Source of the DNA: Halorubrum yunnanense
GTDB taxonomy: Archaea; Halobacteriota; Halobacteria; Halobacteriales; Haloferacaceae
Assembly (NCBI RefSeq): GCF_026586675.1
Contig: NZ_JAODIX010000015.1
Coordinates: 8,093-46,793 of the forward strand
Length of the DNA stretch: 38,701 nucleotides
Direction: 5' to 3'
Shown here: positions 1-18,311 of the stretch, piece after piece
How positions within the stretch are numbered: position 1 is the stretch's first letter
Layout of the letters: every line of letters begins with the position of its first letter
Notes under the pieces: generated by a model
What the model saw: the letters and a program-made list of their open reading frames with translations, nothing else
The model's database searches: none
Told to the model about the DNA's origin: nothing
Program-made: the position numbers and the translations under genes

Positions 1-198
1 CCCCCCGAGGCTGGGGAGGTGTGAGGTGCGGTCGGGTGGGACCCAAAGGGGCAGTCGCGAGGACGAAGCCCGCTGCAGCAAGCACCGCAAGGAGCGAGTG
101 TAACGAGCGACTGAGGCGCGCAGCAAAGCGCGCGAGTCGTCGCGACTGGGGCTTTGGAGGTGTTCATCGCCCATCTGCGATCACTCATTTATAAGCGA
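1..198 (+). repeat. Structured dispersed element, copy A (5' end cut by window)
   Basis: Non-coding segment sharing long blocks with 4331-4540: a GAGGCTGGGGAGGTGTGAGG-like block, GGGACCCAAAGGGGCAG, GCAAGGAGCGA, GAGCGACTGA and GGGGCTTTGGAGGTG. It folds as CCAAAG (43-48), GGG, 13-nt arm (52-64), paired with arm 136-148, GGG, CTTTGG (152-157); the 13-bp stem has one mismatch. An inner hairpin pairs GCGCGC 116-121 with 128-133. It ends in a TATA-like ATTTATAAGCGA at 187-198. The 5' part lies outside the window. Whether it is transcribed is not visible; it could be an RNA gene or a non-autonomous mobile repeat. Confidence 0.8.
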
Positions 199-230
199 AT
201 GCCAGAGGCCTTCGAAGTGCTCTCGCCGTT

Positions 231-3992: not shown

Positions 3993-4187
3993 GTGGGTAT
4001 CGTCGACAGCACGCGACGAGGCGGGATCGAGTTCGGTCCGGGCGCGCTCACCGGGGCGATAGGGGATTCGGTTACTGTCGTCCCCCTCGTCGTCGCGCTG
4101 GCGACGAACCTCGGCGTCGCCTTCCTGCTCGGGATCGTCGCGCACCTCGCGTGGGAGCGGGTCGGCGAGAACGATTACGAGTTATAA
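3993..4187 (+). pseudogene. Internally deleted remnant of a MOT1-type sulfate/molybdate transporter
   Basis: A 64-codon frame from GTG. Residues about 10-36, EFGPGALTGAIGDSVTVVPL, resemble the start of haloarchaeal MOT1-like sulfate/molybdate transporters, whose first motif is E-[LI]-[ST]-G-A-x-G-D. The sequence then passes directly into ATNLGVAFLLGIVAHLAWERV, which reads like a final membrane helix and tail. Family members are about 350 residues with about ten helices, so some 290 codons appear to be missing without a frameshift. It may alternatively be a real one-helix protein. It lies directly before the structured repeat element, which could have taken part in the deletion. Family assignment is from memory of the motif. 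Confidence 0.55.
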
Positions 4188-4203
4188 ATGGGGAACGGTT
4201 GCG

Positions 4204-4500
4204 GTGGCCCGCGCCTCCGAGTGGCCGACAGGCCACGAGGAGCGCGTGCGAGGTCGCCGGCGCTACGCGCCGGCTGCCAGAGGGACCGGAGGTCCCTCGC
4301 TGGACGCGGTGAGCGCTCGAAGAGCGCGAACCGCGAGGTTGGGGAGGTGTGAGGCTGTGGTCGCTGTGCGGTCGGGGCGGGGACCCAAAGGGGCAGCCGC
4401 GAGGACGAACTCCGCCGACGTAAGCACTGCAAGGAGCGAACGGAGTGAGCGACTGAAGCGCGCAACGAGGCGCAGGAGTCCTCGCGGCTGGGGCTTTGGA
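4204..4500 (+). repeat. Structured dispersed element, copy B (fuller copy)
   Basis: About 300 bases of hairpins with no credible gene. The 5' part (4204-4350) is a train of small inverted repeats: GTGGCC/GGCCAC, CCGGCG/CGCCGG, AGGGACC/GGTCCCT and GCGCTC/GAGCGC. From 4340 it aligns with copy A. CCAAAG (4385-4390), GGG and a 13-nt arm (4394-4406) pair with a perfect 13-nt arm (4478-4490), GGG and CTTTGG (4494-4499). The base pair C4397:G4487 is T55:A145 in copy A, a compensatory change. It is followed by the 57-bp repeats. It could be a structured RNA or a transposable repeat. Confidence 0.8.
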
Positions 4501-4677
4501 GGTGGTTAGCGACGATCCGCGGTCGATTATTTATAAGCGAGCGGCTGGGGCTTTGGAGGTGGTTAGCGACGATCCGCAGTCGATTATTTATAAGCGAGCG
4601 GCTGGGGCTTTGGAGGTGGTTAGCGACGATCCGCTGTCGATTATTTATAAGCGAGCGGCTGGGGCTTTGGAGGTGTT
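4484..4677 (+). repeat. 57-bp tandem repeat, three units plus partial, each with a TATA-like box
   Basis: Units begin at 4484, 4541 and 4598; a partial fourth starts at 4655. Each opens with the 3' arm of the element hairpin (GCGGCTGGGGCTTTGG) and closes with TTATTTATAAGCGA. The units differ at one visible base (4520, 4577, 4634: C-G-G, C-A-G, C-T-G). Because 57 is divisible by three, an open frame runs through them; this is a by-product. Confidence 0.92.
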
Positions 4678-4782
4678 GACGATGTCGTTGAGGTCAACTA
4701 CTCGTATACGAACACCATATTCACCTCCGTATCGAGCGCAGTCAGGGAAGCTAAACCGCTCGACATCCTACTCCGAGCAGAT

Positions 4783-5112
4783 ATGCAGTTCTGTGACGAC
4801 TGCGGCTCGATGATGGTCTCTCAGGACGGGGAGATGGTGTGTCAGAACGATGGCTGCGGCGGCACCGCCGAGCGCGACGAGGCGCTCGCCGCCGACTTCG
4901 AGTCGACCACGAAACAGACCGATGACGAGGTGATCGAGACGGAGGAGGGCGCGAACTTCGAGGGGAAGCCCACCGCGACCGACGTCGTCTGCGACGAGTG
5001 CGGCCACGACGAGGCGTGGTACACGATCAAACAGACCGGCGCCGCCGACGAGCCCCCGACGCGGTTTTTTAAATGTAAGGAGTGCGGGCGCCGCTGGCGC
5101 GGCTACAACTGA
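4783..5112 (+). CDS. tfs: Transcription factor S (TFS), archaeal transcript-cleavage factor
   Basis: A 109-residue homologue of RPA12/RPB9/TFIIS. It binds RNA polymerase and stimulates cleavage of the nascent RNA in stalled complexes. The N-terminal zinc ribbon has CDDCGSMM (Cys4, Cys7) and CQNDGC (Cys20, Cys25). The C-terminal ribbon has CDECG and CKECG, with the acidic hairpin GAADEPPTRFFKC whose Asp-Glu pair is inserted into the polymerase active site in TFIIS. Length is standard. A TATA-like AGCTAAACC at about 4750 precedes the ATG. The region upstream is the tandem repeat array, so expression could be affected by it. Confidence 0.97.
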   Translation: MQFCDDCGSMMVSQDGEMVCQNDGCGGTAERDEALAADFESTTKQTDDEVIETEEGANFEGKPTATDVVCDECGHDEAWYTIKQTGAADEPPTRFFKCKECGRRWRGYN

Positions 5113-18046: not shown

Positions 18047-18069
18047 GACGGCGACAGCCCGGGGACGCT

Positions 18070-18161
18070 GCGGTGTCCGGTTTAAATGCGCCGCGGTGTC
18101 CGGTTTAAATGCGCCGCGGTGTCCGGTTTAAATGCGCCGCGGTGTCCGGTTTAAATGCGCC
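18070..18161 (+). repeat. 23-bp tandem repeat, four copies, each with TTTAAAT
   Basis: Units begin at 18070, 18093, 18116 and 18139 and are identical. Each contains TGTCCGGTTTAAATGCG, with a TATA-like TTTAAAT. The array follows the metE stop by 23 bases, so it may sit in its 3' region, and it lies about 150 bases before the permease at 18312. Between 18162 and 18311 I see only the probable promoter of that gene. Confidence 0.92.
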
Positions 18162-18311
18162 GCGGCGCCCGTGCCGGCCGCACGGACTGCGGCGGTACGA
18201 TGCGGTCGCGGACTCACTACCCGAGAGCTTTCGATTCCATAGTATCTCTGCCCTTCTAACAGCGGTGTCCTAAGGAAAACTGCAATAGATGATTCCGACG
18301 ATGGTACACAC

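Follow-up and report, generated by a model that had tools for sequence, protein, structure and literature searches.

Palindrome-associated transposable elements (PATEs), described from Haloquadratum walsbyi at about 180-190 copies per strain (PMC3119063), provide the closest architectural parallel to the repeat family reported here. Our element resembles them in being haloarchaeal, in lacking a transposase and terminal inverted repeats, in placing palindromes close to its ends and in suffering core deletions between internal repeats. PATE palindromes, in contrast, match IS605-type ends in the same genome, no tandem tail has been described for PATEs, and the positions of the present element are old while its content turns over. 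We do not claim PATE membership for it, because no IS605-type gene of this genome carries the element's ends.

Several other systems share part of this design. The element is like REP and REPIN sequences in having about 100 extragenic, structured and long-persisting copies per genome, and for those sequences local amplification by host replication is assumed (PMC3116915, PMC8049555); it differs in being archaeal and much longer, in its three hairpins and arm-plus-spacer tail, and in that a RAYT partner was not identified. BrickBuilt (PMC4596501) is likewise scattered through intergenic regions and has a tandem array inside it, but it has inverted-repeat ends and tested promoter activity, whereas here the repeated unit is one hairpin arm plus a spacer and the copies that we read contain no terminal inverted repeats. 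The element also departs from a MITE, as its ends are direct TTTATAA boxes and no inverted ends were seen in the copies read. The class I intergenic repeats of halovirus HF2 are of similar size (56-58 bp) and have an AT-rich TATA-like motif, but they occur singly at viral promoters and with another motif, TCTTTAAGTC (PMC8707807). The omega RNAs of haloarchaeal IS200/IS605 elements are also structured RNAs of mobile elements (PMC12558985), from which the present family is set apart by having no linked TnpB and no match to Rfam RF02656 or RF02657. The element is probably a non-autonomous structured repeat of the REPIN/PATE kind, in which a tail anchored at a hairpin changes length by slippage or recombination.

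Architecture and fold of the element

The window, the whole stretch of 38,701 nucleotides of Halorubrum yunnanense DNA that was analysed, holds one copy of the element at 4181-4675, in front of tfs, and a second, copy A, near its start (Table 1). Tandem Repeats Finder resolves 4484-4675 into an array of period 57 with 3.4 copies and a 98% match, bearing out the 57-bp recurrence of 3' arm and tail described in the initial annotation; three full 57-bp units, each carrying TTATTTATAAGCGA, are followed by a fourth 3' arm (4655-4670). Scanning the window for the arm, GCGGCTGGGGCTTTGG, gave seven matches in total where 0.39 would be expected by chance, including four exact matches in the array, a one-mismatch copy at 142-157 and a minus-strand match at 4385-4400 that is the 5' arm. 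The box TTATTTATAAGCGA occurs three times exactly and once with a single mismatch at 185-198, in copy A, where the initial annotation had placed it (0.01 expected). The array is no peculiarity of the tfs locus: it forms the tail of an element shared by a whole family of copies.

Table 1. Features of the tfs-proximal element and its surroundings (window coordinates)
Feature	Position	Strand	Basis
Copy A, second element copy in the window (arm 142-157, box 185-198)	38..219	+	same family by genome search
Left TATA-like box (GTTATAAAT)	4181..4189	+	family box position; gap to hairpin A longer in this copy
Hairpin A	4201..4249	+	covarying stem, both-side changes in 10/16 pairs
Hairpin B, length and sequence vary among copies	4250..4334	+	reading and alignment of copies
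Linker motif GAGGTTGGGGAGGTGTGAGG, akin to tail arm	4335..4354	+	almost invariant in 32 copies
Hairpin C (5' arm 4385-4406, first 3' arm 4478-4499)	4385..4499	+	pairing, covariation
Tail unit 1 (arm + spacer)	4484..4540	+	tandem repeat and arm pairing analysis
TATA-like box, unit 1 (likewise 4584-4597, 4641-4654)	4527..4540	+	motif scan
Tail unit 2	4541..4597	+	tandem repeat and arm pairing analysis
Tail unit 3	4598..4654	+	tandem repeat and arm pairing analysis
Terminal arm, then unrelated sequence	4655..4675	+	tandem repeat analysis
tfs promoter-like block GCTAAACCGCTCG, independent of element	4750..4762	+	conserved in orthologues
tfs, transcription factor S, ATG 4783	4783..5112	+	TIGR01384, 77.4 bits (cut-off 64.75)

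Copies share a common order, consisting of a TTTATAAAT box that some of them lack, hairpin A, the variable hairpin B, the linker GAGGCTGGGGAGGTGTGAGG, hairpin C with arms CAAAGGGGCAGCC and GGCTGGGGCTTTGG, and a tail of one to six arm-plus-spacer units, mostly of 57 bp. The repeated unit is the 3' hairpin arm followed by a 33-nt spacer with TTTATAA at its end. The boxes at the two ends are direct TTTATAA repeats that point in the same direction. A left box with at most one mismatch to TTTATAAAT precedes hairpin A in 46 of 72 copies (0.7% in shuffles), generally by 6-7 nt, so that the near-terminal palindromes are hairpin A just past the left box and hairpin C ahead of the tail. At the right end, 55 of 90 copies carry a box, compared with 1.4% of shuffled sequences, and the TATA-like box thus belongs to the element, as had been proposed. 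Two further tandem arrays were seen in the window: one directly past copy A at 230-317 (23 bp x 3.8, TCGCGTCGTTCGGCGATCGGTAA), and one at 18066-18165 (23 bp x 4.3, CGCCGCGGTGTCCGGTTTAAATG) with a TTTAAA motif in every unit.

Covariation across 32 copies indicates that the element folds on one strand. In this alignment 98.1% of the cells of the fold were paired and 28 of 47 pairs had changed on both sides; the covariation score was equalled by none of 500 shuffles and was destroyed when partners were shifted. Cells with G-T outnumbered those with A-C by 74 to 7, and by 48 to 7 (p=1e-8) when one column pair was left out, an excess which suggests that the sense strand of the element is favoured, as RNA or single-stranded DNA alike. 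Hairpin C encloses a GGG/GGG internal loop and tandem G.A steps, and its lone 5' arm pairs with the first 3' arm over 22 nt (86%). The initial annotation had further envisaged that this 5' arm could pair with any of the four 3' arms. The calculated pairing energies speak against switching among them: the 5' arm binds arm 1 with -38.4 kcal/mol but each of arms 2-4 with -25.5 kcal/mol, and with this preference of 13 kcal/mol for arm 1 a switch is not expected; the extra arms, moreover, decay.

Distribution and inheritance of copies

The element at 4181-4675 is one of about 100 dispersed intergenic copies in this Halorubrum genome. Searching the genome with 4360-4700 returned 43 matches, and the 5' arm pattern found 53 forward and 50 reverse matches, against 2 for a reversed-pattern control. 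In seven cases (C1, C44, C56, C58, C84, C90 and C94) a copy stands no more than a few hundred bases from the end of a contig, and some unit counts may consequently be limited by the assembly. Among 52 Halorubrum genomes, 48 hold between 7 and 176 copies, and some Halorubrum have none; in 118 genomes of other genera the element pattern showed no excess over background. Of 391 genomes of the class, by comparison, 167 carry the apical pattern of hairpin C; they represent 52 of 85 genera, and the control pattern matched nothing. The hairpin thus predates the genus Halorubrum, and the copies read in six other genera have somewhat variable outer arms like CTGAAAGGGG and GGGGCTTTC. The full form of the element appears confined to Halorubrum, with large-hairpin relatives across Halobacteria, and what began as a promoter curiosity at a single gene becomes a genome-wide system of about 100 folded elements with hairpin relatives throughout the class. 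Outside Halorubrum, 3' arms also occur in tandem, with a period of 75 bp in Haloparvum, where the tail unit is without a TATA box, and of 47 bp in a metagenome-assembled genome. In the class-wide relatives of hairpin C (for example L163-L192) the apical stems vary freely and GACGYAAGCACCG and GAGNNGCGCAGCGAG are conserved. Weak hairpin C relatives were present on four plasmids. A viral origin was considered and set aside, with no match in viral contigs or phage records. Against Rfam release 15, only tRNAs in the window scored above the gathering score, and a permissive search gave nothing credible; the open-access literature yielded no description of the family, by name or by sequence.

Sites were compared between our genome and two related genomes (45 and 38 copies), one genome per species, with pairs taken as orthologous when both flanks matched (91-93%) and related copies counted as separate in the statistics. 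The two relatives share 21 sites with each other and 18 and 12 with our genome, giving 51 pairs. Orientation is the same in all 51 pairs and inverted in none, and unit number differs at 26 of them. Hairpins A and B of orthologous copies are no more alike than those of random copies (0.651 vs 0.648), and the same holds for hairpin C (0.768 vs 0.752), while the intergenic DNA beside the element retains 20-28% of its signal (0.707 vs 0.595). Across the element the identity profile falls to background exactly at the boxes. The most alike copies inside one genome reach 0.91 identity, and for want of near-identical copies recent copying is not seen; this within-genome comparison and the identity profile used earlier arm assignments, but their results agree with those of the corrected parsing. 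The alignments show that position and orientation are passed on between species, whereas the sequence of the element itself turns over. The content is rewritten, whether by tract exchange, by swapping or by fast mutation under pairing. Inherited positions, fast-changing covarying stems and tail growth on the hairpin side raise the question of what copies or rewrites the element.

A kept position with changed content could also arise by repeated insertion at hot spots, or by swapping of whole elements through precise excision and re-insertion at TTTATAAAT, and both the abrupt fall of identity at the boxes and the directional boxes at the two ends are what such a process would leave. We regard it as unlikely: without a strong site preference about one shared site would be expected in the genome pair for which 21 of 45 were seen, and near-identical donor copies are absent. 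No close pair of empty and filled sites that would indicate a recent insertion was found.

The same observations bear on whether the element is a structured RNA with a host function, made from the sense strand and with the tail as its variable 3' end. Covariation and a G-U bias on one strand, conserved unpaired motifs, the conservation of hairpin C throughout the class and the inherited positions are all in keeping with such an RNA. Single-stranded DNA hairpins would yield the same bias, however, copies at fixed positions turn over in sequence, genomes range from none in some Halorubrum to about 176 copies, and the left box seems too near hairpin A for a transcript that retains the 5' strand of that hairpin, which makes an RNA of this kind a doubtful explanation of the family. 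For the same reason the TATA box was rejected as the element's own promoter, since transcription from it at this spacing would be expected to cut into hairpin A. A broader proposal, which we put forward tentatively and rate slightly above either of these two, is a class-wide structured nucleic acid outside Rfam that keeps inherited sites, constantly rewrites its hairpins and amplifies its 3' arm in a polar manner at the hairpin, with selection acting on the sense strand, in the form of RNA or of single-stranded DNA, for a host function that has not been described.

Turnover of the tail

Among 98 parsed copies of our genome, 99 of the 117 distances between arms came to 57. Spacers are much alike within a locus (identity 0.92, 27 of 59 pairs identical) and follow only the family pattern between loci (0.62, with no identical pairs), a distribution that separates the tail from a CRISPR array. 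Corrected parsing of 286 copies allowed the two ends of the arrays to be compared. Of the 69 arrays with at least three arms, 38 had a first pair of units that matched at 90% or more, but no array had such a match between its last two; in mixed arrays the duplicates lay at the hairpin end in seven of seven, and arm identity falls along the array, away from the hairpin. Tail units are copied locally, and the newest of them adjoin the hairpin. Distal arms may decay because pairing holds the first arm only, and hairpin-end duplicates together with arm decay fit repeated slippage or recombination between the pairing-preserved arm 1 and arm 2.

In the preferred reading, of a REPIN/PATE-like repeat, the hairpin would trigger replication slippage or recombination among intact first arms and the tail would lengthen or shorten as a result. 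The element itself may, like REPIN or PATE repeats, owe its spread to a transposition system that can no longer be readily recognised, its copies may exchange short tracts, and the TATA-like boxes at both ends could be its end or target signals. The Y1_Tnp inventory of the genome consists of two full genes that adjoin TnpB and two fragments at contig ends; IS605-type ends were rejected as a source, as none of the genome's Y1 or TnpB loci carries the element arms at its ends, and no transposase could be linked to the element. Whether hairpins drive minisatellite growth in archaea is a question that this tail raises.

One regularity counts against this reading, which leaves it unexplained: 263 of 271 distances between arms (97%) are divisible by three even though the units look non-coding. 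It would follow if the 57-bp units, themselves divisible by three, encoded a peptide repeat (AAGALEVFTADPQSTIYKR), and 52 of the 64 first units keep the corresponding frame open. Codon-position bias is absent, though (10.6, 11.5 and 11.8 bits), stops are about as frequent as column frequencies predict, no Pfam family scores above its cut-off and no start is conserved, so a coding role appears highly improbable.

TATA-like boxes and the tfs gene

The gene downstream of the array was correctly named as tfs in the initial annotation, scoring above the TIGR01384 cut-off, and the proposal had been that each tail unit acts as an outward promoter whose number tunes the downstream gene, here tfs. A box that is conserved while the rest of the spacer varies could mean a promoter: within the spacer it is TATAA that is conserved best, the distance from box to GTG suits a haloarchaeal start in our own reading of the sequence, and there are precedents in the promoter-bearing haloviral intergenic repeats of 56-58 bp (PMC8707807) and in BrickBuilt, a minisatellite-bearing MITE of Porphyromonas gingivalis whose segments show promoter activity (PMC4596501). 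Unit number does vary, as the initial annotation had supposed, both at orthologous sites between species and at tfs itself, where, in most genomes that share the upstream gene, an element with one to four arms occupies the interval up to tfs.

The setting of the copies argues against this role. With gene orientation taken from a simple codon-usage gene caller, 57 of the 82 tails run towards the end of a gene and only 25 towards a start. Gaps between convergent genes account for 34 copies and those between divergent genes for 11 (p=0.0008), although the two kinds of gap must be about as numerous as each other; a null built from neighbouring gaps was discarded as biased because the loci were centred on elements. 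A right-hand box with at most one mismatch to TTTATAAA is present in 14 of 25 copies facing a gene start and in 35 of 56 that do not, hence box conservation is independent of promoter use and the box is kept equally well in places where it has no gene to drive. Across 50 orthologous upstream regions, nearly all main-clade members have a promoter-like block, CTAAACCGCTCG, about 33 nt 5' of the tfs ATG, with the element present or absent, and the Haloparvum tails have another period and no TATA box. A bacterial promoter scan was set aside as inapplicable to archaea. An array of promoters tuning tfs is accordingly quite improbable, less so only than the peptide repeat; most likely the tail lies near tfs without effect on it, or with an incidental one. 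TATA-like motifs in such tails call for caution against promoter annotation without transcript data.

The tfs upstream regions also differ in how much of the element they contain. Two of them (L119, L121) have an 80-bp gap and no element, and are too diverged to define an insertion junction, while three others (L138, L147, L154) hold only parts of the element or a 16-bp variant repeat. The region closest by TFS sequence (L112) retains a remnant in which the linker motif is joined to a tail unit, a core deletion in which the linker motif was probably one partner. L147 is without the hairpin C pattern and has, 118-182 bases 5' of the ATG, a 16-bp unit, GAGGCTGGAGAGGTGT, that is present at least four times; these copies come after hairpins A and B, which suggests that another motif of the element was amplified there. 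In L132, the segment enclosed by the arms of hairpin C is reversed with respect to them, as though it had been turned round within the stem.
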